A DNA stretch of 64,000 nucleotides from a virus: positions 62,001 to 126,000 of the IMG/VR virus record IMGVR_UViG_3300049215_000481; one strand, given 5' to 3'. Numbering within the stretch: position 1 is the first letter of the stretch; each line of letters starts with the position of its first letter. Shown in pieces: positions 34,426 through 57,081 of this stretch. The notes under the pieces are model-generated. The model did not search any database, had not been told where the DNA came from, and saw nothing but the letters and a program-made list of their open reading frames with translations. The position numbers were made by a program, and so were the translations under genes.

Positions 34426-35035
34426 AGAACAACGCCTCGCCGAGGCGCTCGCCGCGCTCACGCCCAGAGAGCTGGACGCGTACAAGTACTTCGTCCGCAC
34501 GAAGCAGACGGAGGTCGCCGACGCGACCGCGGAGGAGATGTACGCCTTCTTCGTGAAGGGCTCCACCTGCGACGAGATCCGTCGGCTGATGGTCGGCTTC
34601 TCCCTCGGTCAGATCGTCGGCGCCCGCGTGATGAAGGGGTGGGACGCACGCCTCGCTGCGTATCGCGAGTCGCTGGCCGTCGACATCCCTCAGCGCGCAG
34701 CGCAGACGCAGTTGGAGAGCGCCGACCTGCTCGCTGCGATGCTCTCCGCGACCAACCGCCAGTGGTTGGACAAGCTGAAGCGTTACGTCGCCACGGGCGA
34801 CGCAACCCTCATCGCCGACATCCCGCTGCCGAAGAACCTGAAGGACCTGGCGACCCTGACCGAGCTGTTCCTGAAGGCGACAGGACAGGACAAGAAGCGC
34901 GTCGAGGTCACCGGCACCGTGCGCCACGAGCACGCGAAAGCCCCTCTGTCCGCGAAGGAGGCCGCGAGCCTGCTGGACGAGCTGGACGAGGACGACGCTG
35001 TCGACGCCGAGTTCACAGAGGCGCCGCGTGGGTAA
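34394..35035 (+). CDS. terS: Probable terminase small subunit
   Basis: 213 residues. A helical N-terminal region (EQRLAEALAALTPRELDAYK) and HTH-like segment (FFVKGSTCDEIRRLMVGFSL) are followed by a middle helical oligomerisation-type part and an acidic C-terminus. It directly precedes and overlaps the large terminase gene, the usual place for the small subunit. Identification is by position and fold type rather than a strict motif. The class B motif fixes the start. Confidence 0.65.
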   Translation: MPQDLVPVSDKEQRLAEALAALTPRELDAYKYFVRTKQTEVADATAEEMYAFFVKGSTCDEIRRLMVGFSLGQIVGARVMKGWDARLAAYRESLAVDIPQRAAQTQLESADLLAAMLSATNRQWLDKLKRYVATGDATLIADIPLPKNLKDLATLTELFLKATGQDKKRVEVTGTVRHEHAKAPLSAKEAASLLDELDEDDAVDAEFTEAPRG

Positions 35036-36965
35036 GAAGTTGACGCCCGAGCAGCGCGAGCAGCACCTGCGTCGCGCCCTCTTCGTCCCGTGTGAGACGA
35101 AGGAGGCCCTCCACAAGTGGATTCGGCACTACCTCGGCCTGGATGTCCCGAACTGCATCGTCGAGCCGACGAGTAACTCGTCGCCGATGGACATGATCTG
35201 GGAGATCTACGACAGCCTCCGTCGTGGTGGCTCCGAGGACATGAGCCGCGTTCTCTACTACGCGTCTCGCGACTCCTTCAAGACGCTCGGCGCCGCGATC
35301 CTCGAAGTGCTGGCCGTCGTGCACCTGCGGCTCAGCGTCGCGCACATGGCCGCCATCGAGGCGCAGTCCATCAAGTCGCAGATGTACGTCAAGGGCTTCT
35401 TCGGGAAGGCCTTCCTGCGCGAGTACATCGTTGGTGACAGCAAAGAGATCACGAAGTTCCAGCGGTACCTGAATAAGGTCACCGGGGAGAACCTCACGCT
35501 CGAACAGTACGAAGAACTGCCTGAGGGCGCGAAGGCGCAGTACACCGTCATCGAGAACTACATCCGCATCGTCATCTGCACGATGGCCGGCGCCAACTCC
35601 GAGCACGTGCCGCTCCTGGTTGTGGACGAGGTCGACGTCGTTCGCGACCCCAAAGCCTACGAGCAGGCGAAGCTGATTCCCGCGCAGTGGGCGGGCACCC
35701 TCCCTGTCACCGTCCTCACGTCCACCCGCAAGTTCGCCTTCGGCATGGTCCAGAAGGAGATGGACGAGGAGTTCGGTCCCGACGGCGACCGGCGTCTCCA
35801 CATCCGCCACTGGAACATTATCGACGTCACCGAATCGTGCGCCCCGACGCGCCACCTGCCCGAGCTGCCGAAGATCCCGATCTACGTTGACGAGGACCGG
35901 CTCCGTGCCATCTCCGAGGACCAGTACAAGCTGCTGCCCCCGGACGAGCTGCAGAAGTTCAGGAAGGAGGAGGGCTACCAGGGCTGCCTCAAGAACTGCC
36001 GCCTCTTCTCCGCGTGCCACGGCCGCCTCGCGACCGAGCAGAAGTCGAAGTCGCCGCTCCTCAAGTCGGTAGCCGACACCCTCAACAAGTTCCGAGGCCT
36101 CGGCAAGAACATCGAGATGGCCCAGGCGGAGCTGCTCTGCAAGAAGCCGTCGAAGAAGGGCCTCATCTACCCGAACCTCGACCGCTCCGTGCACCTGCTG
36201 ACGCCGGCCCAGATGGCCGAGAAACTCACCGGCGACACGTTCCGGCCCGACTTCACCAAGGCAGAGCTGATCGCGCTGATGCAGACGCGCGACGTGAAGT
36301 GGTACGCCGGCCAGGACTACGGCTGGACCCACAACTTCGCCGACGTCACCGGCGCGGTCGACGGAGCCCGCTGCTTCATCGTCAACGTCGTCTCGGCCCC
36401 GCAGCTCATGCCCGACCAGATTGTGCGCGCCGTCGACCATCTCAAGCGCTACGGCCGCGCCGTCTTCGGCGATCCCGAAGACCCGAAGATGGTGGCCATG
36501 CTGCGCGCCGCCGGCCACCGGATGCGCGCGTGGCACAAGGAGCCCGGCTCTGTCGTGGGCGGCATCAACGTCGTCCGCATGCGGCTGACGCCCACCATGG
36601 GCGAGCCCCTGCTCTTCTTCCTCGCGGGCGACCCGATGGTCGAGCTGCTCTTCAAGAGGATGAGCGAGTACCACTGGAAGCTCGACCCGACCGGCACACT
36701 CGTCGATGGCGAGCCGGACGAGGAGAACGACGACGAGTGCGATGCGCTCCGCTACCTGGTGATGAACGTCTTCGCCCCCAAGGGGAAGGTGAAGGCAGCC
36801 AAGGAGCCCGAGCACGCCCGGTCCCAGGAGACGCCTGCGGGCGTGTACACGCGCGAGAACCTCTTCTCGAAGATCTTGGAGGAGCGCGGGGTCGTCAGCG
36901 GTGGCGGAGAGAGCGCTGACCAGGCCATCGGACGCCGTGGCTCGGTCAAGTGGGACATGAGCTAG
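35028..36965 (+). CDS. terL: Terminase large subunit
   Basis: 645 residues from a GTG inside the previous gene's last codons. ATPase: degenerate Walker A (YYASRDSFKTLGAAI, near 80), Walker B VPLLVVDEVDVV with catalytic Glu near 205, and the coupling segment TVLTSTRK. Nuclease half: AGQDYGWTH (first metal Asp), FGDPEDPKM, and DECDALRYL (last metal Asp), an RNase H-like arrangement. It contains a Cys-rich insert (CLKNCRLFSACHG). It cuts and pumps DNA into the procapsid through the portal encoded two genes on. Confidence 0.88.
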   Translation: MGKKLTPEQREQHLRRALFVPCETKEALHKWIRHYLGLDVPNCIVEPTSNSSPMDMIWEIYDSLRRGGSEDMSRVLYYASRDSFKTLGAAILEVLAVVHLRLSVAHMAAIEAQSIKSQMYVKGFFGKAFLREYIVGDSKEITKFQRYLNKVTGENLTLEQYEELPEGAKAQYTVIENYIRIVICTMAGANSEHVPLLVVDEVDVVRDPKAYEQAKLIPAQWAGTLPVTVLTSTRKFAFGMVQKEMDEEFGPDGDRRLHIRHWNIIDVTESCAPTRHLPELPKIPIYVDEDRLRAISEDQYKLLPPDELQKFRKEEGYQGCLKNCRLFSACHGRLATEQKSKSPLLKSVADTLNKFRGLGKNIEMAQAELLCKKPSKKGLIYPNLDRSVHLLTPAQMAEKLTGDTFRPDFTKAELIALMQTRDVKWYAGQDYGWTHNFADVTGAVDGARCFIVNVVSAPQLMPDQIVRAVDHLKRYGRAVFGDPEDPKMVAMLRAAGHRMRAWHKEPGSVVGGINVVRMRLTPTMGEPLLFFLAGDPMVELLFKRMSEYHWKLDPTGTLVDGEPDEENDDECDALRYLVMNVFAPKGKVKAAKEPEHARSQETPAGVYTRENLFSKILEERGVVSGGGESADQAIGRRGSVKWDMS

Positions 36966-36995: not shown

Positions 36996-37967
36996 ATGTC
37001 GGCTTTGACTCTCATCATCAAGGCGCTGTCGTTTGACGACGACGCGGTGAACAGCAACCCCGCTCAGAAGGGGATCGATCGCGGCCGGACCCTGTCGGGG
37101 CTCACGGTCGAGAACGACGAAACCCTGAAGGTCATGGTCGACCCGGGCGCCAGCGTCACCGTCTTCGACGGATCGCGCACCCTCGGCCACGACAACACGA
37201 CCGACCTGCAGCTCACGCTGAGCCCGCTCGACCCGAACCGCTACCGAGTCACCTGCACGAGTGGCCCTTCGCCAGCATTCCGCACGAACCGCAACCTCGC
37301 CACGAGTGGGAAGAACGTCCAGTGGCAGGTCAACGCCAACCAGACGGCCACGCTCACCATCACGGCCTACTCCCCGCCTTGGTCGGTCGGTGACACCCTG
37401 TTCGTACCCGGTGCCAGCACCGGCGACTCCCCGTCAGCGTTCAACGCGCTGAACGAGGGCTACTGGACGATCCTGGCCGCGAGCGGGAACCAGGCGACGC
37501 TCGCGCGCTTCCCCGGCGAGGTCTTCTCAGGCTTCACCGAGACGGTCACGTCACCGGACAACAACGCCCTGCAGGCCTTCTCGGCCGCGGGCGTCCAGGT
37601 CGGCGACACCATCGACATCAGCGCGGGCTTCTCCGTGACGGCGCAGCACTCCTACGACGTCGTGGCTGTGAACCCCAACTGGGTCGAGTTCATCAGCACC
37701 GCGCCGCTCGGCGAGGAGGTCGCGCAGCCCGGCCAGGCAGGCTTCGTCATCTACGACGCCGCCAAGCGCTTTCTCTACATCGAGACCGACCAGGAGGTCG
37801 TGGTCCAGGTGAACGGTGACACCGGCAACTACAACCGCGTGGAGCCGGTTCTGCCCGGCGACAAGAAGTTCGTCGGCCCCTATATGAAGTGGGGCCACGC
37901 CTGGAAGCTGGTGCTCGTGAGCCGCTCCACGGCGCGCGCCAACGTCACGGTCTGTGCGGCTGAATAA
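36996..37967 (+). CDS. Beta-rich virion structural protein (323 aa)
   Basis: No catalytic motif. The sequence is dominated by short strands and Gly/Asn/Thr turns (DPGASVTVFDGSRT, ATLTITAYSPPWSVGDTL, SVTAQHSYDVVAVNPNWVEF), as in head fibres, decoration or adaptor proteins. It sits between terminase and portal under its own class B motif and overlaps the portal start (TAATG). Virion location is inferred. Confidence 0.66.
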   Translation: MSALTLIIKALSFDDDAVNSNPAQKGIDRGRTLSGLTVENDETLKVMVDPGASVTVFDGSRTLGHDNTTDLQLTLSPLDPNRYRVTCTSGPSPAFRTNRNLATSGKNVQWQVNANQTATLTITAYSPPWSVGDTLFVPGASTGDSPSAFNALNEGYWTILAASGNQATLARFPGEVFSGFTETVTSPDNNALQAFSAAGVQVGDTIDISAGFSVTAQHSYDVVAVNPNWVEFISTAPLGEEVAQPGQAGFVIYDAAKRFLYIETDQEVVVQVNGDTGNYNRVEPVLPGDKKFVGPYMKWGHAWKLVLVSRSTARANVTVCAAE

Positions 37968-40153
37968 TGGCCAAAGCGACGAAGGGTAGCGTCGGGGTCT
38001 CGTCCCTGGCGGCCAGCAACGGGTTCGCGGTGGCTTCCACCGCACCGCCCATCAAGAAGTCGTTCGTCATGATGGCGCCCGACATGCCGGAGCCGCGCCA
38101 AAAGGGCGGCGACGACGGGATGACGCTCTACAAGTCGATCGTCAACATCCTCAACGGTGGCCGCGAGGACTCCGTCGAGCGCCTGGCGTTCGAGACCGAC
38201 CCGCAACTGGTCAACCAGTTCCAGTCCGTCTATCGCGCGAAGCTGCGCCTCGTCCCGGACGTCCTCCTGAAGAGGATCATGATCCAGGACGACCTCGTCG
38301 CGTCGATCGTCCGCGCGCGCGAGACGCAGATGTCCGCCTTCGGCCGCCCGCGGCCGGACAGGTTCTCCACGGGCTACGTCATCGAGCCCCGCGTCGGCAT
38401 CGTCGACAAGATGACGCCCGAAGAGAAGCAGACCCTGGAGGTCCGCATCGAGGGCGCTGTCCGCAAGTTCGAGACGTGCGGCAGCAACGAGGGTCTCGAC
38501 CGCGAGGACTTCATGTCGTTCTCGCAGTACCTGATGATGAGCGCCCGCAACGCGGTCGGTCTCGGTCGCATCGCGACGGAAATCATCTGGACCAAGACGG
38601 CCAGGGACTCGGAGGAGAAGAAGTTCCACTCCTTCCGCCCGACGGATGCCGGCACGATCTACAAGGCGACCAAGCAGAAGCAGGCGGCAGAAGCAGTCCG
38701 CAAGCAGGCGCTCGCGATCCTCAAGCAGATCACGAACAAGAAGCTCATCGAGGAGAAGAAGTTCTTCGACGACGAGTACGCCTGGATTCAGGTCATCGAC
38801 GGTCAGCCGCGCCAAGCGCTGAGGTCTGACGAGATGGCCGTCCACACCTTCTTCCCGGTGGCGGACGTCGAGCTGGACGGGTACCCGGTCACGCCGATCG
38901 ACACGATGATGTCGGCGATCACGACCCACATCAACATCACCACGTCGAACCGGCTCTACTTCCAGAGCGGTCGCGCCACGCGCGGCATGCTGCTGTTCAA
39001 GTCGGACGACATCGACGAGCACGCGCTCGCCCGCATCAAGCAGCAGTTCAACGCGTCGATCAACAACGTCAACAACTCGTACCGAATGCCGGTCTTCGCA
39101 GTCGGCAGCGGCGACGAGATCACGTGGGAGCCCATCGACAACAGCTCCCGCGACACCGAGTTCCAGTACCTGACGGACATGAACGCGCGCGTGATCTTGA
39201 GCGCGTTCCAGATGAGCCCAGACGAGCTGCCGGGCTGGTCCTACCTCAGCCGAGGCACGAACAACCAGGCGCTGTCCGAGAGCAACAACGAGTACCGCCT
39301 GGAGGCCGCTCGCGACCTGGGCATCCGGCCGCTGCTCGCGAACTTCGAGGACTTCGTCAACTCGGTCCTCTTCCCGCTCATCGACCCGGACCTGGCGAAG
39401 ATCTGCCGGCTCAAGTTCAAGGGTCTGGACGCGGACACCGAGGAGAAGGAGTCGGTCCGGCTGCAGCAGGACATGCCGGTCCACATGACCTACGACCAGG
39501 TTCTCCAGAAGGTGGAGAAGAAGCCGATCGGTCGCGCCATGGGTGGCGAGTTCCCGCTCAACCCGCAGTTCCAAGATGTCCTCGACAAGTACTTCACGGT
39601 CGGCCAGATCCTGGAGTTCTTCATGGGCGTCGAGGGCGCCTCGAAGGACCCCAAGCTCGCCTACTTCCGCGACCCGTTCTGGTTCCAGTACCAGCAGCTC
39701 CTCCTGCAGCAGCAGCAGCTCCAGATGCAGCAGCAGCAGGCGCAGATGCAGCAGGCGGCGGCTCAGCAGCAGGCCGCTGGTACCGGCGGTCCAGGCGCGG
39801 AGCAGGCCGAGGGCTCGGGTGTCGACGTCGAGGGTTCGCCCGGTGGTGGAGATGACCAGCAGCCCGGCGGCAAGAAGGACAAGACGCCGTACGGCAGAGC
39901 TGACGACGATCAGCAGGCCCAGGCCCAGCAGAAGGCTGGCGCCGAGGCTTCTGCTGGCCAAGACCTAACTCGCTCGATCGACCAGGCCATCGCCATCCTG
40001 ACGAAGAGCGAGAGTCACCTCCCGCTGTCGAAGCGCAAGCTGCTCGCGCAGAGCCGCAAGACGCTCGACCACTTCCGCATCGGCTTGGAGAACGACGCTC
40101 GCGAGGCGACGAAGGAGATCGTTGCCCTCGCCGAGAAGCACGTGAGGCCGTAG
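37967..40153 (+). CDS. Portal protein
   Basis: 728 residues. Typical portal features: a long helical/stem arrangement with GRATRGMLLFKSDDIDEHAL, a tunnel-type region AFQMSPDELPGWSYL followed by NNEYRLEAARDLGIRPLLAN, and a Gln-rich C-terminal barrel/crown region (about 575-615) with a Gly/Gln linker. Placement between terminase and MuF-like gene agrees. It would form the dodecameric DNA channel and bind the terminase. The final ~70 residues are helical and charged. Confidence 0.85.
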   Translation: MAKATKGSVGVSSLAASNGFAVASTAPPIKKSFVMMAPDMPEPRQKGGDDGMTLYKSIVNILNGGREDSVERLAFETDPQLVNQFQSVYRAKLRLVPDVLLKRIMIQDDLVASIVRARETQMSAFGRPRPDRFSTGYVIEPRVGIVDKMTPEEKQTLEVRIEGAVRKFETCGSNEGLDREDFMSFSQYLMMSARNAVGLGRIATEIIWTKTARDSEEKKFHSFRPTDAGTIYKATKQKQAAEAVRKQALAILKQITNKKLIEEKKFFDDEYAWIQVIDGQPRQALRSDEMAVHTFFPVADVELDGYPVTPIDTMMSAITTHINITTSNRLYFQSGRATRGMLLFKSDDIDEHALARIKQQFNASINNVNNSYRMPVFAVGSGDEITWEPIDNSSRDTEFQYLTDMNARVILSAFQMSPDELPGWSYLSRGTNNQALSESNNEYRLEAARDLGIRPLLANFEDFVNSVLFPLIDPDLAKICRLKFKGLDADTEEKESVRLQQDMPVHMTYDQVLQKVEKKPIGRAMGGEFPLNPQFQDVLDKYFTVGQILEFFMGVEGASKDPKLAYFRDPFWFQYQQLLLQQQQLQMQQQQAQMQQAAAQQQAAGTGGPGAEQAEGSGVDVEGSPGGGDDQQPGGKKDKTPYGRADDDQQAQAQQKAGAEASAGQDLTRSIDQAIAILTKSESHLPLSKRKLLAQSRKTLDHFRIGLENDAREATKEIVALAEKHVRP

Positions 40154-40154
40154 C

Positions 40155-40940
40155 TTGCCGGCTACGCTCTCACGGGGAGCGATCCGGGCGGTCAACGCGG
40201 CCGTCGATCGCGTCTTCGACAGGATCAAGGGCCGGGTCATCGGTCCCGACTTCATTCGCGCTCGCGGCGACAAGCAGATCTTCATCGGTCACAAGCCGGC
40301 GCTCTCCCTGCCCGGCATCTACCGCCAGGCGGCAGCAGAGGAAGGCTCACGCGCGGACGAGACGATGGTGCACGGCCTCTCCAAGGTGGCCGAGAGCTAC
40401 ATCGACGCTCAGCGCGAGGCGACCAAAGCCCGCGTCCTGCGTTCGGTGAACGCGTGGCTCGCCGACAACAAAAAGGCCGACGTCCAGACGGTCCTGGGCG
40501 GCGAGCTGGCAGACGTCTGGGGCAAGGTGATGTCGGACGTCACCAAGATCATCGACACCGAGAGCACCGCGGCCCGCAACCTGGGCACTCTCGAAGGCAT
40601 CACGAAGGTGTCGGCCGCCCACGACATCGCCGATCCGACCGTCTACTGGGTCACGGTGCGCGACACCGAGATGTGCGAGGAGTGCAAGCGCCTCCATCTC
40701 ATCGACATCGACGGCCACACCATCCCGCGCGTCTGGAAGCTCAGCGAGGTGTCGTCGGGCTACCACAAGCGCGGCGACGAGCACCCGTGCACGTCCGGGC
40801 TGCACCCGCACTGCAGGTGCACGATCGGCAACCTGATGCCGGGCTACGGGTTCGACGACACGGGCAATGTGAAGTTCATCAAGCTCGGCTGGGACGAGTA
40901 CGCCCGCCAGCGCGGCTCAACGCCCGACGAAGACTCCTAG
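40155..40940 (+). CDS. MuF-like minor head protein
   Basis: 261 residues from a TTG start one base after the portal stop. The C-terminal domain carries the MuF signature: VTVRDTEMCEECKRLH, GHTIPRVWKL and the metal-type end CTSGLHPHCRCTI. Proteins of this family follow the portal, sit inside the capsid and are often ejected with DNA. The 3' end overlaps the convergent small gene by 24 bases. Confidence 0.82.
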   Translation: MPATLSRGAIRAVNAAVDRVFDRIKGRVIGPDFIRARGDKQIFIGHKPALSLPGIYRQAAAEEGSRADETMVHGLSKVAESYIDAQREATKARVLRSVNAWLADNKKADVQTVLGGELADVWGKVMSDVTKIIDTESTAARNLGTLEGITKVSAAHDIADPTVYWVTVRDTEMCEECKRLHLIDIDGHTIPRVWKLSEVSSGYHKRGDEHPCTSGLHPHCRCTIGNLMPGYGFDDTGNVKFIKLGWDEYARQRGSTPDEDS

Positions 40941-41553: not shown

Positions 41554-44500
41554 ATGATCATCGACGGAGTCCTTGGCTCGGAAGCCATCGACTCCTCAGG
41601 CGAAATCCTCGACGTCGAGGGCGCCGACATCTCCGACGTCGACAAGGGCACCCTCCTCCTCAACTGGGAGCACGAGCCCGGCGAGAAGGGCGCCAACACC
41701 ATCGTCGGCAAGGTCATCGCCGCCAAGAAGATCTTCGGGCCCGACGACTGCGAGAACGACCGCCAGTACGCGTACTGGCAGAAGGTCAAGCTGCCGTTCA
41801 TCTACGGCATCTGCCGCCTGTTCGACGGCGCCGGCCACGAGAACGCGAAGGCCATCGCGGCCATTATCCGCGACAACGCCGCCCACGGCGAGATGCTGGT
41901 GTGCCGGTTCAGCGTCGAGGGCTCGACGCTGGAGAAGGAGGGCAACCGCCTCAAGGCCTCGGTCATCAGGCGCGTCGCCGTCACGGTGAAGCCCTGCAAC
42001 CGGACCGCGAATTCGGGCCTGATCGAGGACCCGAACGCGCCCGAGGGCTTCGAGACGAACGTCGCGAAAGAGAAGACGTCCGACCTGCTCTCCCTGCAGG
42101 ACGCCCACAAGAACGAGCTGGCCCACCCGCTCTACGAGCGCCTCGGCCGCTCCGAAGAGATCACGTGCAACCCGCTCGTCGACGGCGAGCTGGCGAAGGC
42201 CCTCACCCTCGGCGGCGGCGACGTCGCCCCGAGCGCGACCGCGGGCTTCGGCGCGCTCGTTCCGCAGAGCATCGGCAAGGGCACCGTCCTCGCCACGCTC
42301 CGGGACTACGGCTCGAAGAAGAAGTTCGACAAGACCGAGTTCCGCGCGTTCGCGAAGATGCGCCTGCCCGAGGCGAGCGACGAGTTCCTCGACCACTTCA
42401 GCGACATGGCCGAGGACTACCACGTCCGTCGCGCCCAGCTCGTGAAGAAGGAGGAGGCGGCCCCCGCTGCGAAGCAGCCGAAGGTGAAGGTCGCCAAGCC
42501 GGCCGCCCCAGCGGCGGCCAAGCCGGCCAAGGCCGCCAAGCCGAAGGAGCAGCCCGTCGACGAAGAGGATGCCGCGCCCATCAAGATCGCGAACGGCACC
42601 ATCCGTGGCATCCCGACGCAGCCGCTCAAGATGCGCGGGTACAAGTTCGACGAGCAGAACGGCATTCTGCACACGCCCAAGGGTAGCTTCCCGCTCTACA
42701 ACCCGGACAAGGGATTCGCGACGGTCGAGCACGCTGGTGCAAAGACTCCGTTCTACAAGGACGGCAAGCTGCACGTCGCGCCGGGCACTGACATGTCTAC
42801 GGTCCCGGCCAACACGCCGAACCCCGGCTTTCGCGAGATCTACAACTCGCAGCCCATCGAGGACTTCCACAGCGGCAAGGTCATGCCGAACTGGATTCGT
42901 CTGCACGAGCTGACGAAGTCCGGCCAACTCCCCGACGAGGTCGTCATGCACTCGGCGATGTTCTCGATGATGTCGCCCAACACGCCCGTGCGCCCGCACG
43001 AGCTGATGTACTCGCACCTGGCGGACACGTTCGAGGACCTCGGCATCGACCCGCGCGACCCCGACTTCAAGCGCGCTCGCAAGCACTGGCTCGACAAGGA
43101 CCAGGGCACGAACTACCCGCGTCTGGCCGGCGACTACTTCCGGAACCACGCGGACGCCCACCTGAGCAACGACTCCGAGGCCAAGGGGCGCAAGGCCGGC
43201 GAACTGATGTCGTTCATGCTCGGTCAGAACAAGTTCGACAACGTCCAGCAGTACCACAAGCTCCACTCGACGCTCGTCGACATGGTGAAGCGCCACGGCG
43301 TCAACTCGCGTGCAGCCACTGCGGAGTTGATGGGACACAAGCACAAGCAGCAGCTCTTCAAGCAGAAGTACGGCGCTGCGAAGTCAGAGGCGAGGAAGGC
43401 CGGCTTCGCCGCTGGTCTGCGCGACCACAAGATAGACTACGTCACCGCGCAGGAGGCCGCGTACGGCAAGAAGATCGACGAGCGGCAGATCGCTGGCCTC
43501 CGCAAGCAGTGGCGGGCCGAGGCTGACAAGCTCGGCCTGAAGAACGACCTCTCGGAGCACGCGGAGAACGCTGCGAAGGCGAAGATGGGCGAGTACAAGG
43601 GCGTCACCGTGCCCGGTCTCGCGCCCAAGACGGGTCGCTTCACGTTTACGATGTTGGGCGGTGGCAACACCTTCGTCCCCGACACGCACATCATCCGGCA
43701 CCTCTTCGGCATGGATGCCGACAAGGATGGCGACACGCTCGCCTACCTCAAGTCCGTGCTCTGGAACGCGAACAACCACCACGTCCTCGAAGGCATCGAC
43801 CGGTGGTATGCGAAGAACCACCCAGCCGCGCAGACGATGCAGCAGCACCCCACGTGGGGTCGCCACTTCCAACAGGACCCCGAGCAAGCGAACTTCCCCG
43901 CGTTCTGGCGCCACTGGTGCTCGATCGCCGAGGACGAGCGTCGCCGCGGCATGGTCAACAAGTCGGCCAACGAGTTCTCCACGCACGAGCCGTTCTTCCT
44001 CAAGATGAACAGCATCCTCGACCGCCTGAAGAAGTCCGCGGTCACCGGCATCGACCACGGGCTCCTCGCGCGCCTGCTCGTCCTGCACAGCCAGTACCAC
44101 GAGCAGTTCGGCGAGATCCCGGCGCAGATGATGTACGTGCACCACATCGTGCCGCACCTCCTGGAGATGGCGCAGTACCGCCAGCGGCACGACGACCTGC
44201 CCGACTTCGCGAAGCACCTCCGCGTGAACGCGCTGGAGATCGAGCTGCGCAAGGCTGCCTCGGACCTGCAGGCAGCGTCGCTCGCCGACCCGCAGATCCC
44301 GACCATCCACGGCGTGCACCTGAAGATCAACGGCCAGGAGCACCGCGCCGGCCGCTTCGCAATCGCCGACGGACACATCCACCACTTGGAGGACTACTAC
44401 GGCCTCCTCAACGAGGTGCTGCCCGAGGGCAAGCTCACGCCCGCGAAGGTCGCGACCATCCACGGCATGAAGATGTCGCCGTCGCTGCGCGTGGACGTCG

Positions 44501-45504
44501 AGCACGTCGGCCTCCCGAAGTACGACGAGGTCCCACAGGAGATCCCCGCGGCGCAGCCGCTGAAGCGGCCGATGCCGTCCGTCTTCCACTACCGCCGCGC
44601 AGGCATGGACCAAGACCACGTCCTGGAGGTGCGTCAAGGGCACTACCTGCTCGACGGTAACCGTTTGTCCTACCCGGAGGTCCAGTCGGTCGTCAGCAAC
44701 CTCCGCGACGGCTCGGCGCAGATTCGCTATCCGAACAAGGAAGGCGCAATCGAGCAGATCCGGAAGATGGAGTCGCAGTTGCAAGACCTGATGAAGGCCG
44801 CGTCGGAAGAAGAGGGGCCGGAAATCGACGAGGACGCGATGCTGCAGCATGCACGCGCGGCCGAGGCGGCTGGACACCTGCCGAAGGGCTTCGCCCGCAA
44901 CTACGCGCGCTCCCTCTACGAGGACCCGATGACCCCGGGCATGGGCAACAAGAAGGCGTGGCAGAACTTCGCCGAGAAAAAGAAGCCGGGCACCTACATC
45001 CAGATGGACGGGAACTCGTTCAAGGCCATCAACGACGCCTTCGGGCACCAAGGCGGCGACTCGGCCATCAAGGCGTTCGGAGCAGCCGCACGTTCAGCGA
45101 TGGACGAAGCTGTCGGTCAGACGCACGGCAAGCTCTTCCGCAACGGCGGCGACGAGTTCATCGCGCACGTCCCGAGCCCCGAGCACGCGGCCAAGTTCTC
45201 GCGCCTGCTCAGTCAGAAGCTCCAGGCGATGCCCGCCATCGAAGGCAAGCACCAGCTCTCGATGGCATTCGGGTTTGGCCACACACCCGAGCACGCTGAC
45301 AAGGCGCTCTATGCGGCTAAGGCGCAGAAGATCGATCCGGCTACAGGGAAGTCGCGCTGGCCGATTGGCCAGGTGCCGAATCTTGCCCACTCCCTGGTGC
45401 CTGGTCATGAGGGACCACTCCCTCTTCATGATCCGCAAGCGGCGGCTGTGCATGGGCTGCAAGATACGCCACAGCCCGCCGCAGCAGCTCAGCCGAATCT
45501 CTAA
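41554..45504 (+). CDS. Prohead protease fused to a large central region and a GGDEF domain
   Basis: About 1316 residues from ATG 41554 (GTG 41539 is an alternative; residue numbers here are from the GTG). Residues ~6-160 resemble HK97-type prohead proteases: DSSGEILDVEG, LLNWEHEPGE (catalytic His45) and CRFSVEGS with VIRRVAVTVKP at the end of the fold. A Lys/Ala/Pro linker (310-350) leads to a helical middle containing MFSMMSPNTPV, GLAPKTGRF and VPDTHIIRHLFG, vaguely like HhH DNA-glycosylases. Residues ~1130-1290 are a GGDEF domain with QMDGNSFKAINDAFGH, RNGGDEF (1203-1207) and ADKALYAAKA. An RxxD inhibitory site is absent. Confidence 0.8.
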   Translation: MIIDGVLGSEAIDSSGEILDVEGADISDVDKGTLLLNWEHEPGEKGANTIVGKVIAAKKIFGPDDCENDRQYAYWQKVKLPFIYGICRLFDGAGHENAKAIAAIIRDNAAHGEMLVCRFSVEGSTLEKEGNRLKASVIRRVAVTVKPCNRTANSGLIEDPNAPEGFETNVAKEKTSDLLSLQDAHKNELAHPLYERLGRSEEITCNPLVDGELAKALTLGGGDVAPSATAGFGALVPQSIGKGTVLATLRDYGSKKKFDKTEFRAFAKMRLPEASDEFLDHFSDMAEDYHVRRAQLVKKEEAAPAAKQPKVKVAKPAAPAAAKPAKAAKPKEQPVDEEDAAPIKIANGTIRGIPTQPLKMRGYKFDEQNGILHTPKGSFPLYNPDKGFATVEHAGAKTPFYKDGKLHVAPGTDMSTVPANTPNPGFREIYNSQPIEDFHSGKVMPNWIRLHELTKSGQLPDEVVMHSAMFSMMSPNTPVRPHELMYSHLADTFEDLGIDPRDPDFKRARKHWLDKDQGTNYPRLAGDYFRNHADAHLSNDSEAKGRKAGELMSFMLGQNKFDNVQQYHKLHSTLVDMVKRHGVNSRAATAELMGHKHKQQLFKQKYGAAKSEARKAGFAAGLRDHKIDYVTAQEAAYGKKIDERQIAGLRKQWRAEADKLGLKNDLSEHAENAAKAKMGEYKGVTVPGLAPKTGRFTFTMLGGGNTFVPDTHIIRHLFGMDADKDGDTLAYLKSVLWNANNHHVLEGIDRWYAKNHPAAQTMQQHPTWGRHFQQDPEQANFPAFWRHWCSIAEDERRRGMVNKSANEFSTHEPFFLKMNSILDRLKKSAVTGIDHGLLARLLVLHSQYHEQFGEIPAQMMYVHHIVPHLLEMAQYRQRHDDLPDFAKHLRVNALEIELRKAASDLQAASLADPQIPTIHGVHLKINGQEHRAGRFAIADGHIHHLEDYYGLLNEVLPEGKLTPAKVATIHGMKMSPSLRVDVEHVGLPKYDEVPQEIPAAQPLKRPMPSVFHYRRAGMDQDHVLEVRQGHYLLDGNRLSYPEVQSVVSNLRDGSAQIRYPNKEGAIEQIRKMESQLQDLMKAASEEEGPEIDEDAMLQHARAAEAAGHLPKGFARNYARSLYEDPMTPGMGNKKAWQNFAEKKKPGTYIQMDGNSFKAINDAFGHQGGDSAIKAFGAAARSAMDEAVGQTHGKLFRNGGDEFIAHVPSPEHAAKFSRLLSQKLQAMPAIEGKHQLSMAFGFGHTPEHADKALYAAKAQKIDPATGKSRWPIGQVPNLAHSLVPGHEGPLPLHDPQAAAVHGLQDTPQPAAAAQPNL

Positions 45505-45946
45505 AGTGGCCGAGGCCGGCGTTGCACGGCTGGCACAGCAGGGCGCGGACCTGCCCCGTCTCGTGATCGTGGTCAACACTGAAGTATTTCCGCGTTGGCG
45601 GACCGCCACAGATCGCACACCCTCCGCCCTGGCTCGCGACCAGTGCATCGTAGTCGGCCAGCTCTAGACCGTAGAGGTGTCGGAGATGTCGGCGCCTGTT
45701 CCCGTTTGCATTGTCGCGCGTGACAGCCTTCCGTCGCTTTTCGGGATGGAGCGCATTCCAGGTTGTGGCGTTGTCCTTGGTACAGCTCTTACACAGGCCG
45801 TAGAGGCCATAGAAGTGGGTGTCCAACGGCAGCGTCTTCTCGCACTGCCTGCAATTCCGCAGGTTACGTGCTCGAAGACAGCGCTGGCACCGCGCGGGCG
45901 TGTGCGCGCGGCTTGCGACGTACGGGCATCTGAAGTCGTTATTCAC
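45341..45946 (-). CDS. HNH / endonuclease VII-like free-standing endonuclease
   Basis: 201 residues from GTG 45946. Zinc pairs CQRC, CRQCEKTL and CKSC precede the nuclease core [36 protein letters not shown] and VRALLCQPCNAGLGHFRDS. Its last ~55 codons (Pro/Gly/Ser-rich tail) overlap, antisense, the 3' end of the protease-GGDEF gene by 164 bases. Probably a mobile endonuclease lodged between capsid genes. Class B-like motif 7 bases upstream. Confidence 0.78.
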   Translation of the reverse strand: MNNDFRCPYVASRAHTPARCQRCLRARNLRNCRQCEKTLPLDTHFYGLYGLCKSCTKDNATTWNALHPEKRRKAVTRDNANGNRRRHLRHLYGLELADYDALVASQGGGCAICGGPPTRKYFSVDHDHETGQVRALLCQPCNAGLGHFRDSAELLRRAVAYLAAHAQPPLADHEEGVVPHDQAPGSGQDSAPGQSASATSL

Positions 45947-46911: not shown

Positions 46912-47853
46912 ATGTCCACGAAAGACATCAACCTCGACACGCTGGTGTCCGAGGTCAAGAAGGAGCTGGAAGGGCTCCTCAAGGCGGAGGCCGACGTTCT
47001 GGCCAAGGCCCATCCCGGCGAGGACACTTCGGACGAGACCCCCGCGGACGAGTCCGCGACGGCCTCGGAGGCCAGCTCGCCGGCTGACGCGGGTCCTCCC
47101 GCTGACGACGCTTCGGCGTCCGCTGCGCCTCCGCCCTCGGGTGACGGCGACGCTGACGACGCTCCCCCGGCGGATGCCTCGGGTTCGGCCCCGGCCGACG
47201 CGAGCGCCTCGGGCGATCCCGCGGCCGACGCGACCACGGACCACGACGCGCTCGTCGCCGAGTACAGCAAGCTCGACGCCGAGACGCTGAAGGCGCACTT
47301 CCTCGCGGCGAAGGAGGCCCTCATGGCCGCCCTCGGCGCGGACGCAGCCGGAGCGGCCGACGGCGCCCCCGCAGCTCCTCCCGCTCCGGCGGCGGACGCG
47401 GGCGCACCTCCTCCGGCAGCAGCGGCGGCGCCCCCGATGGACGCCGGCTCTCCTCCTCCCGACGCGCCCCCGGCGCTGAAGGGCGAGATGCCGGCCGACG
47501 GCAACGGTGAGAACCCGCTCGACGCGGTTCGCAAGGCCGAGGCCACGGTGAAGGACGCCGAGATCGCCGCGCTCAAGAAGAAGGTCGCGGAGCAGGACGA
47601 GGCCCTCGGGAAGCTCGTCACGGCGATGAAGGTCGTCGTCGAAGCTCCGGCGCGCAAGACGGTGACGTCGCTCACCCAGATCAAGAAGAACGAGGGCGTC
47701 GACGTCACGTCGATGTCGCGCGACCAGGTTCGCGCCGCTCTCCGTCGCAAGGCGGAAGGGAAGCTCAGCAAGTCGGACCGCGAGCTGATCAACCAGTTCG
47801 CTCTGAACCTCATCACGGTCGAGAAGGTCGCCCACCTCCTCGAAAACAAGTAA
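46912..47853 (+). CDS. Probable scaffolding / prohead core protein
   Basis: 313 residues with a GGAAGGA ribosome site. An N-terminal helix (DTLVSEVKKELEGLLKAEAD), a long Ala/Asp/Pro-rich disordered region (about 40-200) and a C-terminal helical section (EIAALKKKVAEQDEALGKLV) ending with a compact helix bundle (FALNLITVEKVAHLLENK). This low-complexity acidic plus C-terminal helical layout directly upstream of the major capsid gene is typical of scaffolding proteins, which the fused prohead protease would remove. Confidence 0.68.
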   Translation: MSTKDINLDTLVSEVKKELEGLLKAEADVLAKAHPGEDTSDETPADESATASEASSPADAGPPADDASASAAPPPSGDGDADDAPPADASGSAPADASASGDPAADATTDHDALVAEYSKLDAETLKAHFLAAKEALMAALGADAAGAADGAPAAPPAPAADAGAPPPAAAAAPPMDAGSPPPDAPPALKGEMPADGNGENPLDAVRKAEATVKDAEIAALKKKVAEQDEALGKLVTAMKVVVEAPARKTVTSLTQIKKNEGVDVTSMSRDQVRAALRRKAEGKLSKSDRELINQFALNLITVEKVAHLLENK

Positions 47854-47920: not shown

Positions 47921-49324
47921 ATGAATCTCATCGAGCAAATCGGCGGCCTGGTCAAGGCACTCGAAGCCGGCAACTACGACGCGGCCCCCAGCCGCCTGCA
48001 GCAGGGCGCGGCCCTGCAGGTCGAGGACCTGTCCGACGTCATGCACAACGTGACGTTCGACCAGGACAAGATCAAGCTGCAGAAGATGCTGAAGGTCGAG
48101 AGCTGCAAGAGCCAGCTCGCGCAGTTCAACCGTCAGCTCAGCTACGGCATCATGGGCGGCGCCGCCGCCATGGAAGGCGGCATCGGTCAGGAGGAGACCT
48201 CGGATTACGTCCGTGTGACGGTTCCGATGGCGTACTACTCCGAGCTGCGCCGGGTCACGCTCCAGGCCAACCTGGTCGAGACCGTGGACGGCGTGAAGGC
48301 GGAGGAGCGCGCGGCTTCGGACGCGGCGATCCACCTGGCGGCGAACATCGAGTTCGACTGCTTCCGCGGCATGGCCGACTTCAGCAACGCGGGCGTGTTC
48401 GACGGCAACCCGCTGACGATCGCCGACCTCCCGAACATGCACGGTCTCGACCTGCAGGTTCGCCAGAGCGACAACCAGCGCAGCTCGCGCGACCTCATGT
48501 TCTCCGAGTTCGGCTCGGACGAGACGGTCGTGCTCTCGCAGGGCGGCGTCCTGACGCAGGAGACGGTCGAGGACGCGAGCGTCCGTTCGGCCCTCAACTG
48601 GGGTGAGGCGGAGAAGCTCATCATCGACCCGCGCTCGCTCAGCGCGTACAACAAGCTCGCGTTCGGCATCTCGCGCAACGTTCTCGCGGGCCAGCCGCTG
48701 GACGCGACGGGCGCCGACCTGCGCAAGCAGTGGGTGAGCGGCGGCACGGTCTCGATCGAGGCGTCGCACTTCCTCCGCGGCAAGTACAAGCCCGCTCCGG
48801 CTCGCGCCAACGGCCCCCTGGCCCCGGCGTCGATCTCGCCGGCTTCGACCACGGACGCGACGGCCCCCACGGCCTTCACCGCCGGCCAGGTGTACATCTA
48901 CACCGCGACGAGCTGCAACGAGCTGGGCGAGAGCCTCCAGTGCGCGTCGCAGTCGGTGACGATCGGGACCACGGCCGACAAGGTCGTCGTGACGATCAAC
49001 CACCCGGCGTCGGGCACGGTCCGCTTCTTCAACGTCTACCGCACGGTGGCGGGCGGCGCGGCCGGCACGCAGAAGTTCATCGGCCGCGTGGTCATCACGC
49101 CGGGCGCGAACTCGACGACGTTCACGGACCTCGGCAACAAGCTGCCCGGCTTCGTGACGGGCTTCCTGATCGAGGGCGACACGATGATGCTCAAGGAGCT
49201 GGCGTCGTACTCGCGCGTGAAGCTGGCGGTCACCGACCTCAGCATGCCCGAGGCGCACTTCCGCTTCTGCACCCTCGCGGTGACGGAGCCCCGCAAGAAC
49301 GTCCTCATCGACAACCTGAAGTAG
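47921..49324 (+). CDS. Major capsid protein with an inserted Ig/FN3-like domain
   Basis: 467 residues with a GGAG site before MNLIEQIGGLVKALE. The N-terminal part and the segment VTVPMAYYSELRRVTLQANL through RSALNWGEAEKLIIDPRSLS look like an HK97-fold capsid protein. Residues about 300-415 are a beta-sandwich-like insert (VYIYTATSCNELGESLQCAS, VRFFNVYRTVAGGAAGT, TTFTDLGNKLPG) resembling FN3/Ig domains displayed on phage heads. It then returns to the capsid fold (LKELASYSRVKLAVTDLSMP). A strong terminator follows. Confidence 0.82.
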   Translation: MNLIEQIGGLVKALEAGNYDAAPSRLQQGAALQVEDLSDVMHNVTFDQDKIKLQKMLKVESCKSQLAQFNRQLSYGIMGGAAAMEGGIGQEETSDYVRVTVPMAYYSELRRVTLQANLVETVDGVKAEERAASDAAIHLAANIEFDCFRGMADFSNAGVFDGNPLTIADLPNMHGLDLQVRQSDNQRSSRDLMFSEFGSDETVVLSQGGVLTQETVEDASVRSALNWGEAEKLIIDPRSLSAYNKLAFGISRNVLAGQPLDATGADLRKQWVSGGTVSIEASHFLRGKYKPAPARANGPLAPASISPASTTDATAPTAFTAGQVYIYTATSCNELGESLQCASQSVTIGTTADKVVVTINHPASGTVRFFNVYRTVAGGAAGTQKFIGRVVITPGANSTTFTDLGNKLPGFVTGFLIEGDTMMLKELASYSRVKLAVTDLSMPEAHFRFCTLAVTEPRKNVLIDNLK

Positions 49325-52366: not shown

Positions 52367-52897
52367 ATGCGGCAGGTGTCCTTCCACTTCATGCACAAGA
52401 AGCGTCCGACCTCCCGCCACGCGCAGGAGGACAAGGACGGGTGGGTGCGGATGTACCAGCAGGGGAAGAGCTATCGCGAGATCGCGGTAGCGTTCGACGT
52501 ACCGTATCCGAGCGTCTTCTACTATGTCAGGAAGACCCTCGGCATCACTGACGGACGGAAGCCCGGACGCAAGAAAAAGTACACGGATCTTTCTCCTCGC
52601 CAGGTCCAGCGCAACTGCCAGCTCAGGAACTCGTACGGCATCTCTCTCGACGAGTACGCAGTATTGAAGGAGTCGCAGGGTGGCGTCTGCGCGATTTGCG
52701 AACTGCCGCCGAAGAACGGCAAGACGTCGACAAGTGCACTGCACGTAGATCACGACCACGAGACTGGTCGAGTGCGTGGGCTGCTCTGTCAGAAGTGCAA
52801 CCCAGCTCTCGGCCAGTTCAACGACGACCCAGACCTGCTGGAGCGTGCGGCCTCGTACCTGCGCCTTCACCGTGAAGCTCAGAAGGTGGCTGCGTAG
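52367..52897 (+). CDS. HNH / endonuclease VII-like endonuclease with N-terminal HTH
   Basis: 176 residues. The N-terminus has a resolvase-type helix-turn-helix ([30 protein letters not shown]), not seen in the other copies. The nuclease core follows: [36 protein letters not shown] and [19 protein letters not shown]. Stop overlaps the next GTG (TAGTG). Probably a mobile endonuclease that acquired a different targeting domain. Confidence 0.8.
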
Positions 52898-55737
52898 TGG
52901 CTGAAGTCGCTCTGATCACCGCATACAACGGCCACGGCCAGCTCCTCTTCGGGAAGCGCAAGGACAACGGCCGCTGGACCCTCCCGGGCGGTCACTTCGA
53001 GGAGGGCGAGACTCCCGAGCAGGCGGCGCGCCGCGAGATGTTCGAGGAGACGGGTCTGCACGCGCAGACTCTCGTCCCGTTCGCCACGTTCACGAACCCG
53101 CAGGGCATCACACTGCACTGCTTCTCCGCGTTCGTCACCGGCGAGCCCCACAGCAACTTCGACCCCGACGACGAGGTCGAGAAGTGGGAGTTCGTTGACA
53201 TCGAGAACGGCATCCCGTCGAAGATCTGGGAGCACCTCCACGGTCCGCAGGACGATCAGAACCTCGTCCGCCGCGTGTTCGAGGCTGAGGGCCTGTCGAA
53301 GGCCGAGGAGCCGCTGGCGAAGGCCAAGTGGCGCGTCAAGGACAGCGACGTCTACACCACGTACGAGTTCCCCGACGAGGAGTCGGCGAAGGAGTACCGG
53401 AAGAAGGCGGGCAGCAAGTACGAAGACGACTGGAAGGGCATCGGCGTCTGTGAGGTGAAGGGGAAGCGCGTGGTCGCCCGCGCGTGGAGCGACTCTAACC
53501 TCGACGACTTCACGTCGCTCGCGGTGAAGATGGGAGGCAAGATCGTCGACGCCGACGACATGGACGACCTCGTGTCGCCGGAGCGCTTCCGCGAGCTGGG
53601 GAAGGCCGAGGACGAGGTCGGCAGGCTCCTGGAGCATCCCTCGCCGCACGAGCGCACGCTCGCGCTGAAGCTCAACACCGTCACGCCGCGCCACCTGCAG
53701 ACGGCCTCGCTCGACCCGCACCCAGACGTGCACTCGCTCGCCATCGCGAACCCGCAGTTCGGGCACGCGGAGGCACACCACCTGATGTCGGCTTCTGCCG
53801 GCAGCGACGGGAAGTTCCCGCTCGTGCAGCAGCACGAGTTCCTGCGCCAGCACGACCGCGTTCGGCCGTACCACCTCGTCTCGTTCGTGAACAACGCTCG
53901 CGCTCACGCCGCGGGCGACGACCTCGACCGCGCGCTGACCATCGCTGTCGGCCACCCCAGCCTGCCGCCTGTCATGGTGCGGTCTCTGTACCTCGACCCG
54001 CGCACCTCAGCGGCGCACCGCCTCGCCCTAGTGGGTCATATGAAGGCGCCTGTCGACGTCCTGGAGCACGCCCTCCACACGGGCCTCATCGTCCCGTCGG
54101 CCGAGGCGACCTCACTCGCACAGGCTGCGGTCGCACACCCCTCCCTCCCCCACAGCTCCGTCGAGCACGTCGTCAAGATGGCCGGTGACCGAGGCGAGCC
54201 GCACGTCGTCGCCATCGCGACCCACGCTCTCAAGACGAACGCCACGTCGCCGGAGATGAAGGAGCACCTCTTCACGCAGACGCTCCTGAAGCCGCGCTCC
54301 GCAGCCTCGCGCGCGCTCCTGAACGCGTTCCTGGAGGGGCCCTCGGCGAAGCCCGAGGACCGCCAGCGCGCTCTCGGGCAGTTGCTGAACAAGTCCGAGC
54401 CGCTCGCGAAGGCCGTCGCCCCGCAGCACTTCAGCTCCATCGTGAAGGCGCTCGACCCCGAAGCTCACAAGCTCGTTGACCACAAGCCAGACCTGTCCGC
54501 GCACCCGCAGTCGCACGGCGCCGAGGTCCAGGCGTATCACCACAACGTCGTGAACAGCGCCCAGCGCGTTGGCGCGCACTCCAGCGGCAGCGCTGGCCTC
54601 GGCGGTGGCATCACGCGCAAGAAGGTGTTCCGCTACCAGGTCCCGGGTCAAACAGAGCCCGGCAAGGCCATGGTGAAGCCCTATCACGAGCGTGTCATCC
54701 AGCGCTGCAGCAAGTGGATGAAGTATCCGATCCAGGGCTGGGCCGAAATGACGACGCAGGCCCTCTTCCACGCAGGCGGCATCGGGCACCTCCACCAGAA
54801 GGTCCACGTCACAGAGCACAACATGGGTCCGGGGCACGAGCACGAGCCCGCCCTGGTCGTGCACCTCGCCCCGAATCACCTCGCGGTCACGGACGGCGGT
54901 CGGACCTACTACAAGCCCGAGCAACACGACCTGGACGTGCGGAAGATCGCGCTGATGGACTTCCTTACGAACAACAACGACCGCCACGGTGGGAACTTGA
55001 TGTTCAACGCCGACACCGGCGCACCGCTCGCGATCGACCACTCGCGGAACTTCCAGTACATCCGTCCGGCGCAGGACCGTTTGTCGCTGGACCGCACGCC
55101 CGACGGCGAGGACACGTTCAAGAACTACGCAACCGGTGCGCTCCACGGCATCGCCAGTCCGGTCACGGAGGATGTCCGCCGCAACTACGACTACGACAAG
55201 CCGGGTGACCGCCAGCGCGCCCTGTACGACGCGCAGCTCGACGGCATGCGGAAGTACGCCCCGGCCTTCGAGTGGTGGGACGAGGCGGGTCCGAAGATCC
55301 GCCAGGAGTTCCACAAGCGCCTCGACCAGATCAAGGACCCGGAGGTGCGCGACCACCTGAAGCGCAACTTCGATGCGCGCGCCGACTGGCTCGACGAGCG
55401 CGGGCATTTCGGCTTGGAGAACTACGGCGGCGACTGGTACCACGACGCCGTTCCGATGTACAAACCGGACCAGCTCTCCGAGGCGGAGAAGGACGACCCC
55501 GAGGCCGTGGCCCGCTTCAACGAGCGTATCCGCGCGAAGCAGGACGCAGAGAAGAAGGCGCGCGCGGACAAGCGCAACGCGAAGAAGGCGTATCAGAACT
55601 GGCTCAACGAGAAGCCGCAGTACCCGCACCACATCATGAGCCTGCCTCGCGAGCAGATCGACCAACACCCGGACTGGAAGAAGTACGTCGAAGCGTACGA
55701 TCCGTGGCTCGCGCGACGGCCGGCGGAGGCAGCGTAA
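52897..55737 (+). CDS. Nudix hydrolase + helical repeats + HipA/PI3K-like kinase fusion
   Basis: 946 residues from GTG. Residues 1-130: Nudix hydrolase with a complete Nudix box, [18 protein letters not shown] followed by FEETGL. Residues ~240-540: repeated helical units of the type 'HPSLPxxxVxxL', like HEAT/ARM variants. Residues ~585-720: a kinase-like core with KAMVKPYHE (Lys594 candidate), catalytic loop [17 protein letters not shown] (Asp695, Asn700) and LAIDHSRNF (Asp714 metal), the HipA / PI3-4-kinase pattern. A charged helical C-terminus follows. Located among virion genes, so it may be packaged and injected; this is inferred. Confidence 0.8.
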
Positions 55738-57081
55738 ATGCGCGTCGTAGTGACGGACCACATGACCGACAAGTCCAAGCTCTACGAGGGCACGGACGAC
55801 GTGATTGAGCAGCGCCTGCTGTTCGACTACCCGTGGCTGCGTCCGGAGGACGACTCAGATCGCGACCTGCACGCCACCCTGGAACATCTGGACGCCACAG
55901 GCGCCTATCAGGTCTTCGTCGAGGAGGAGCCGCTCACGAAGAGCAATCTTGAGCGCAAGGACCTCGCGAACCACCCCGTCATCGCGTCGATGCTCGGCTT
56001 CATCCCCACCTCCACGCCCGAGTTCCAGGCAGCACGCTGGATGTCCGGCGGGCGCGACATCCCGATCGAAGCCGTTCGCCGCGCGCTCTACGACGAGGAC
56101 GGGAACATTGAGCACGCTGCCCTGAAGGCCTACGGGTTCGAGATCAACGACACCAACATCAAGGCTCTCCACGCGGTCCGCGGCATGGGCGACTTCTCCA
56201 AGTCGGAGGAGTTGGCCGCGACCGCTGGTTCTGTCATCGCGGCGCACGCCGAAGGTGAGGACGTCGCGCAGGCGCTCCGCCGCGCGTACAAGGACCAGTT
56301 CGTGCTCCCCGTCGCACTCGCCGGAAAGCACTCGAAGGGGTCGCTCGTCGCTCGCGACGAGGCCACGCACTCGACCTGGCTCCTGAAGCCGGGCTCGGGG
56401 AAGGCCGGCGCTGCCGCCGGCAGCTCCCAAGACCCGTCCACGCAGAGCGCCCGCGAGGCTGCCTGGTACCACATCGCGAAGGAGTGGGGCCTTTGGAGCA
56501 GCTTCCCCCGCGCGGAGCTGATCCTCATCGACGGCCAGCAGTACGCCGCGCTCCAGCTCCTGCCGTGGAGCTACAAGACCGCCGAGAAGCGTCGCGTGTC
56601 GGAGCCGGGCATCGTCCGCAAGGTCCTGGCACCGTACCTGACCGACGGCGTGCTCCACCAGTGGGCGATCATGGACTTCGTCCTCGGCAACCCCGACTCG
56701 CACGGCCAGAACGTCATGGTCGATGACGAGGGGGACGTGAAGCTCATCGACCACGGCTCGGCGTTCGCCGGTCCTGCCTTCGACCCCGCACACGACAACG
56801 ACTCGTTCGTCCCCTACTACCTGCGCGCGTGGGCCCCGCGGCAGAACTTCAACGCCTTCACGACCGACGAGAAGCTCCGCTACATGCCGCGCGTGTCTGC
56901 GTCCACCGCCGCACGCATCAGCCAGTGGGTCCTGGGGCTCAACGCGGGCGCCGTCCAGGCGCTCTGCCACCGCTACGGCATCAACCCGGCCCCGACGCTC
57001 GACCGCCTCGCCCGGGTGAAGGCTGCGGTCGCCTCGGCACCGGCTGACGAGGCGATCAACCGGCTCTGGGTCACGACGTAG
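55738..57081 (+). CDS. HipA/PI3K-like kinase-domain protein (447 aa)
   Basis: Starts one base after the previous stop. The C-terminal half holds a kinase-like core: HSTWLLKPGSGKAG (Lys217 candidate ATP contact), SAREAAWYHIAKEW (Glu helix), catalytic loop MDFVLGNPDSHGQNVMV (Asp320, Asn325) and KLIDHGSAFAG (Asp338 metal). The N-terminal ~190 residues are a separate helical/mixed domain (LLFDYPWLRPEDDSD; EFQAARWMSGGRD). Related in motif, though not closely in sequence, to the kinase part of the preceding protein. Substrate unknown. Confidence 0.75.
   Translation: MRVVVTDHMTDKSKLYEGTDDVIEQRLLFDYPWLRPEDDSDRDLHATLEHLDATGAYQVFVEEEPLTKSNLERKDLANHPVIASMLGFIPTSTPEFQAARWMSGGRDIPIEAVRRALYDEDGNIEHAALKAYGFEINDTNIKALHAVRGMGDFSKSEELAATAGSVIAAHAEGEDVAQALRRAYKDQFVLPVALAGKHSKGSLVARDEATHSTWLLKPGSGKAGAAAGSSQDPSTQSAREAAWYHIAKEWGLWSSFPRAELILIDGQQYAALQLLPWSYKTAEKRRVSEPGIVRKVLAPYLTDGVLHQWAIMDFVLGNPDSHGQNVMVDDEGDVKLIDHGSAFAGPAFDPAHDNDSFVPYYLRAWAPRQNFNAFTTDEKLRYMPRVSASTAARISQWVLGLNAGAVQALCHRYGINPAPTLDRLARVKAAVASAPADEAINRLWVTT

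Follow-up and report, generated by a model that had tools for sequence, protein, structure and literature searches.

A predicted capsid-maturation protease fused to glycosylase-fold and GGDEF domains in an Mx1-like phage

Some enzymes are injected into bacteria from phage heads, T4 Alt and the virion RNA polymerases being examples, and to our knowledge it is mostly unclear how such cargo gets into the heads. A gene in a 64,000-nucleotide window of the virus record IMGVR_UViG_3300049215_000481 (169,280 bases in all; the window is the whole stretch of DNA analyzed) raises the question of whether the protease that matures the head may itself be the carrier. The gene is a single uninterrupted frame on the plus strand, running from an ATG at 41554 to a stop at 45504, and encodes 1316 amino acids (aa); an alternative GTG start at 41539 would give 1321 aa, and residue numbers below are counted from the ATG. 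We regard the domains described here, and their fusion in one protein, as practically certain; the gene is best read as encoding the protease that matures the capsid, of the SPO1/812 type, in an Mx1-like phage.

The explanation that we favor, with modest confidence for the whole of it, is that of a cargo-bearing maturation protease whose GGDEF domain acts as a nucleotide cyclase. The C-terminal extension would consist of internal head cargo, made up of a glycosylase domain of the OGG type, a pair of small modules, and a nucleotide cyclase in the form of the GGDEF domain, and translation as part of the protease would carry them into the prohead. During maturation the protease would cut L-x-K↓(A/S/V/M) sites (the arrow marks the cut) in the capsid protein, in the scaffold, and in itself; the cargo would thereby be freed inside the head and would then enter the next host along with the DNA. 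In the new host the GGDEF domain would make cyclic di-GMP (c-di-GMP) or a related cyclic dinucleotide, and host second-messenger signaling would be altered at the start of infection. The parts of this proposal differ in strength. Packaging and ejection of the cargo we consider reasonably likely, and relatives that carry other enzymes (PI3/PI4-kinase-like) at the same place were counted for the cargo reading; cyclase activity and an effect on the host are plausible. The most specific version is tentative: an active diguanylate cyclase and an OGG-type glycosylase would both be loaded as protease extensions, freed by the cleavage that matures the shell, and injected to produce an early pulse of c-di-GMP or a related nucleotide.

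Domains of the long protein

The predicted structure of the N-terminal domain matches the maturation protease of phage T4, gp21 (5jbl, Z score 10.5), and herpesvirus maturation proteases also match. Of the 44 members of the protein family, 38 match PHROG 1028 (‘head maturation protease’). His40 and Ser120 do not vary across the aligned family, in keeping with the Ser and His of the gp21/assemblin-like fold. Profile searches of this domain against Pfam and the PDB gave no convincing match, and its identity needed both PHROG and structure comparison. A reading made earlier from the sequence alone (the sequence-only reading) had called it an HK97-type prohead protease; the protease is real, but the evidence does not point to the HK97 family in particular: the best fold match is T4 gp21, the capsid module is of the SPO1/812 type, and the domain has no Pfam match. 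The domain resembles T4 gp21 and the SPO1-type head-maturation proteases in fold, in its place between the portal and capsid genes, in the capsid family that accompanies it, and in a motif shared with the N-terminus of the capsid protein. Those proteases differ in being short, single-purpose enzymes (253 aa in the SPO1-type Bacillus phage Goe16), whereas about 1100 aa of enzyme domains are added here.

The middle of the protein contains a domain that the sequence-only reading did not mention. Its predicted structure superposes on the archaeal 8-oxoguanine DNA glycosylase SsOgg (3fhg; Z score 14.5, 203 of 207 residues). Independently of that superposition, the family profile found a single match in the PDB, 3fhf, another archaeal N-glycosylase/DNA lyase (E-value 0.048), with K692 and D710 of a GLAPKT...VPDTH motif aligned; all 18 sequences of 18 have both residues. 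The domain has no Pfam match. On the model, it is predicted to have the HhH-GPD fold of the OGG type (Ogg2 type) with the conserved catalytic Lys and Asp. Within the same region of two related protease genes (L019:7932-12272 and L017:7941-12602) there are intein-like insertions detected by the Pfam Intein_splicing model, the curated cut-off being passed by L019 only.

The C-terminal domain is a real and near-complete GGDEF domain. Residues 1133-1259 match PF00990 with 54.9 bits (cut-off 23.8), and TIGR00254 scores 37.8 bits, over its curated cut-off of 37.4. An AlphaFold model of residues 883-1316, built from 26 sequences (Mx1 rows were not among the sequences used for structure models), has a predicted local distance difference test score (pLDDT) above 90 across most of the domain. 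It aligns with crystallized GGDEF domains at Z scores of 16-18, for example with 3ign at 1.9 Å over 144 residues; a chance occurrence of the motif is ruled out by the Pfam score and the fold match. The claim of a GGDEF domain is borne out, and the hidden Markov model search and structure prediction that had been suggested as a check recovered the fold.

Mapped onto PleD by spacing, the domain keeps the equivalents of D327, K332, N335, D344, R366, the GGDEF motif, and K442 (D1152, K1157, N1160, D1169, R1196, residues 1198-1202, and K1256, respectively), including the guanine contacts N335 and D344; the roles of these residues and of Arg446 are those established for PleD. The equivalent of Arg446, the second phosphate-binding Arg, is not Arg here, which had gone unnoticed. 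The metal-binding Asp had been correctly picked out as a residue but numbered 1157, a count that follows the GTG start although the gene was given as beginning at the ATG, from which it is D1152. The lack of an RxxD product-inhibition site upstream of the GGDEF motif was also correctly seen, as inspection of that region (QTHGKLFRNGGDEF) found none. The domain evolves under purifying selection, judging from ratios of nonsynonymous to synonymous substitution (dN/dS) of 0.04-0.14 in six of seven informative sequence pairs and 0.45 in one. Catalysis by this GGDEF domain is predicted from its residues with moderate confidence.

Predicted cutting sites shared with the capsid protein

When the protease of Myxococcus phage Mx1, a relative described below, was used as a query, it unexpectedly matched the capsid protein at its N-terminus. 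A profile was therefore informative that combines the N-terminal sequences of 75 capsid proteins (consensus KALEAGxYNAAPSxLxQGAALQxED): it matches about 50 of the family proteases and almost nothing else, nearly always once per protease and C-terminal to the protease domain. A similar likeness, judged by eye, occurs in the protease of Goe16. The position of the cut was taken from Staphylococcus phage 812. Its capsid protein, deposited as chains of 463 aa and 439 aa, and SPO1 gp6.1 are both homologues of the capsid protein in the window. By alignment offsets, the 439-aa chain starts right after the Lys aligned to K12 of the capsid protein in the window, and for this reason the maturation cut was taken as L-x-K↓(A/S). 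A T4-like cut after the Glu of KALE was considered first, and was dropped since the start of the mature 812 chain points to Lys.

Motifs of this type recur in scaffold, capsid, protease, and putative cargo proteins. Short forms were observed 176 times in 42 homologues of the scaffold, compared with 7.7 expected (23-fold), and the motif is also enriched in the capsid protein, the protease, the NUDIX-kinase protein, the portal, and GGDEF proteins encoded by separate genes. No enrichment was found in terminase, MuF, or two other families of the structural operon. Cleavage of the capsid and scaffold proteins by this protease is predicted from the motif evidence. Within the long protein, predicted sites follow the protease and the middle domain and precede the GGDEF domain; in addition to the conserved Lys (Table 1), the last of these has Leu at position −2 in 22 of 24 rows and Glu or Asp at +2 in 20 of 24. 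Cuts at the predicted sites would yield fragments computed at 23, 68, 8.5, 20, and 25 kDa, the GGDEF domain lying in that of about 25 kDa. Processing at these sites is probable on this comparative evidence, and the protein looks like a polyprotein, with parts set apart by sequences similar to the cutting sites of its own protease. The sequence-only reading had proposed that the C-terminal part is released during capsid maturation, packaged, and injected; its release step now has comparative evidence in the L-x-K↓(A/S) sites.

Relatives and competing explanations

The nearest named phage is Mx1 (OR576727), an isolated phage with a genome announcement from 2023 (PMC10720576). Homology to Mx1 covers 84% of the query, with 36% identity; gene order and domains are the same, and the capsid proteins are 57% identical. 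The phages differ in that three overlapping genes occupy the corresponding stretch of Mx1: one for a putative prohead protease of 1239 aa with a PI3/PI4-kinase-like domain at its end, one for a hypothetical protein of 150 aa, and one for a ‘nucleotide cyclase’ of 243 aa (WNM70324), which lacks the K332 equivalent. Searching viral contigs with a single sequence returned nothing, and alignment-based scans succeeded, identifying about 90 related phage contigs with proteases of 304 to 1608 aa. The fused form is seen in ten sampled phages. Protease and GGDEF domain share a single frame in the window and in L005, L020, L025, L030, L031, L033, L048, and L070/L105; in L011 the contig begins inside the GGDEF protein and the protease part falls outside it. 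In Mx1 and others the GGDEF domain is a separate neighboring gene. It is always beside or within the protease gene, near the capsid gene. Phages with a separate GGDEF gene usually have a PI3/PI4-kinase-like domain at the end of the protease, and in those with the fusion such domains are often found in downstream genes, as in the window.

In a tree of the proteases, the GGDEF carriers fall in one clade, where they make up 26 of 31 members, and the sister clade has none. The clade with GGDEF domains comprises phages of about 170 kb and includes the cultured Mx1, so that packaging, cutting, and cyclase activity are directly testable. The fused and separate states switched more than once on the trees, with weak support. 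Mx1 suggests myxobacteria as hosts for part of the clade only, and for that part the hosts would be bacteria that rely on c-di-GMP for motility and development. Scanning genome contigs with the capsid protein gave one match, in a metagenome bin of Saccharibacteria and probably a phage contig binned wrongly, and revealed no host.

Two further observations concern the protease genes of relatives. In L025, a second and shorter frame just past the capsid gene (10476-10919, plus strand) matches the protease profile at 74.6 bits and could be a duplicated or partial protease. The protease extensions of L088:4998-6542 (minus strand) and L045:2181-5690 (plus strand) contain DUF6321, another enzyme-sized addition at the corresponding place.

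Several observations weigh against the cargo-bearing protease with an active cyclase. Position in the head operon equally fits late action in the producing cell. The window's own copy of the capsid-like sequence is weak or degenerate and was placed by alignment. The motif is also enriched, 5-fold, in a class of ‘other’ proteins, a large class that takes in unrecognized scaffold homologues and frames that are not genes, and for this reason the contrast in enrichment rests on the named classes. No recognized input or dimerization domain precedes the GGDEF domain, where the model shows a helix; the active site of GGDEF domains forms at a dimer interface. Of the 27 GGDEF sequences in the family, six have a broken GGDE motif and only about 10 retain the K332 equivalent.

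These last points bear most directly on an alternative in which the GGDEF domain, though cargo that is packaged or associated with assembly, serves as a nucleotide-binding or structural module, for instance a GTP-binding internal head protein, and not as an enzyme. The sequence-only reading had offered a nucleotide-binding module as its second option, and we rate it as unlikely, though the strongest of the competitors. It keeps this standing because of the six relatives that have lost GGDE and the more than half that lack the K332 equivalent; the missing Arg446 equivalent and the want of a recognized dimerization domain point the same way. Against it, the equivalents of R366, D370, and K442 are invariant in all 27 sequences, the window and at least nine others keep a fuller active site, and the domain is under purifying selection. 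The relatives with lost catalytic residues indicate either a role that is partly non-catalytic or an activity that is being lost in places.

Two other alternatives accept an active enzyme, and both appear improbable to us. The cyclase could work late in the producing cell, its link to the protease gene only fixing expression with the head genes. The late position in the head operon would suit this, as would the separate, overlapping cyclase gene of Mx1, according to which fusion is not required; the conservation of capsid-type cut sites beside the GGDEF domain in both fused and separate forms, and the other enzyme domains that occupy the same place, speak for cargo instead. Alternatively, the domain could make a different cyclic nucleotide, or act as a decoy or antagonist against nucleotide-based host defense, as opposed to mimicking c-di-GMP signaling. 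Substrate-contact positions do vary among the relatives, the D344 equivalent being Asn in L013, L015, L016, and L018, and interference with host nucleotide responses has been suggested by Iyer et al. (PMC5512222); the domain in the window, however, keeps its guanine contacts. In the same four relatives the K332 equivalent is Gly and GGDEF is intact, a combination that could mean altered substrate choice. Finally, an assembly or sequencing artifact joining genes that are separate, as they are in Mx1, was rejected and has next to no probability, since the protease-GGDEF fusion recurs in independent contigs from different samples and the frame is open across 3.9 kb.

Known systems and genomic setting

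Each ingredient of the proposed system is known, and injected multi-enzyme proteins with GGDEF domains have already been proposed in print. Phage SPN3US provides a precedent in its self-cleaving prohead protease and in head proteins that are packaged and likely ejected (PMC10052503). Another is given by the polyvalent proteins, found in phages and in conjugative elements and predicted to include GGDEF domains and assemblin-like peptidases (Iyer et al. 2017; PMC5512222). As in those proteins, several unrelated enzyme domains (here protease, glycosylase-type, and GGDEF) are joined in one polypeptide, putatively linked to the virion. The assemblin-like peptidase is described there as C-terminal, a descriptive trait and not a strict criterion, whereas in the present protein it occupies the N-terminus and would be the protease that matures the phage's own head, and the OGG fold lies in mid-protein. 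The diguanylate cyclases SadC, WspR, PleD, and DgcB share the fold and most catalytic residues with the GGDEF domain, which differs from them in lacking RxxD, the Arg446 equivalent, and a recognized sensory or dimerization domain, and in being fused to a capsid protease. GGDEF proteins are also encoded by other phages, such as Bordetella FP1, Bacillus phage G (gp350), and an uncultured phage (A0A6J5L0Y4, which matches nearly all of the C-terminal 434 residues); these are not known as protease fusions, and the GGDEF gene of FP1 lies among DNA-metabolism genes.

In the open literature, no paper was found on a fusion of GGDEF with a prohead protease or on DNA glycosylases in phage capsids. We found no earlier description of a maturation protease that, from its N-terminal position, carries both a DNA glycosylase fold and a GGDEF domain, with cut sites of the capsid type recurring along the protein. 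The carrier of the cargo appears to be the maturation protease itself, its parts being set apart by recognizable cut sites. If the cyclase is active, the virus would be using second-messenger synthesis as soon as it enters the host.

The gene sits in the head operon, between portal and MuF-like genes on one side and scaffold-like and capsid genes on the other (Table 1). It carries the sole GGDEF domain of the 169-kb record; EAL and PilZ domains were searched for in the whole record and none were found, and PADLOC returned nothing for the GGDEF protein.

Table 1. Features of the gene and of the head operon around it, in window positions (↓, predicted cut).
Feature	Positions	Strand	Basis
Whole gene, protease-glycosylase-GGDEF (putative polyprotein)	41554-45504	+	One open frame; same architecture in independent contigs L005, L020, L025, L030, L048, and others
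Capsid-maturation protease domain, residues 1-160	41554-42033	+	T4 gp21 fold; PHROG 1028; invariant His40 and Ser120
Predicted self-cleavage region ELAK↓ALTLGGGDVAPS..., residues 212-243, counterpart of capsid-protein N-terminus	42187-42282	+	Capsid N-terminal profile matches ~50 family proteases here, window copy placed by alignment; cut position from phage 812
HhH-GPD (OGG-type) DNA glycosylase-fold domain, residues 425-811, catalytic-type Lys692 and Asp710	42826-43986	+	3fhg fold match; 3fhf profile match
Predicted cut site LKK↓SAVTG after glycosylase domain	44026-44049	+	Lys in 17 of 17 rows, then Ser/Ala in 15 and Glu/Asp in 15
Possible cut site ELRK↓AASDLQ	44242-44271	+	LRKA invariant in window, L005, and Mx1; support weaker than at other sites
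Two small alpha/beta modules, residues ~917-1058	44302-44727	+	Predicted secondary structure; comparison with Mx1 genes; in part a separate gene in Mx1 (P0002)
Predicted cut site DLMK↓AASEEE before GGDEF, Lys1081	44785-44814	+	Lys in 24 of 25 rows
GGDEF domain, residues ~1117-1287	44902-45414	+	Pfam E 1.2e-14; Z 18.2 to 3ign; family profile against PDB E 1.5e-13
RNGGDEF signature, residues 1196-1202	45139-45159	+	Sequence motif
Terminase	35028-36965		Head operon
Portal	37967-40153		Head operon
MuF-like	40155-40940		Head operon
Scaffold-like acidic protein with L-x-K-A-E motifs	46912-47853	+	Directly upstream of capsid gene; motif enrichment in 42 homologues
Major capsid protein, SPO1/812 type, predicted maturation cut GLVK↓ALEAG (K12↓A13)	47921-49324	+	PHROG 752; SPO1 gp6.1 E 2.8e-28; phage 812 mature chain offset

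Further along the window, a gene at 52897-55737 (plus strand) combines NUDIX and PI3/PI4-kinase-like parts, with three L-x-K-(A/S)-E motifs between the parts, and from these motifs it may be a second cargo polyprotein. It is followed at 55738-57081 (plus strand) by another large late gene, with a HipA/kinase-like domain. Two endonuclease VII-type (HNH) genes, at 45341-45946 (minus strand) and 52367-52897 (plus strand), are inserted beside the protease-GGDEF gene and the NUDIX-kinase gene.

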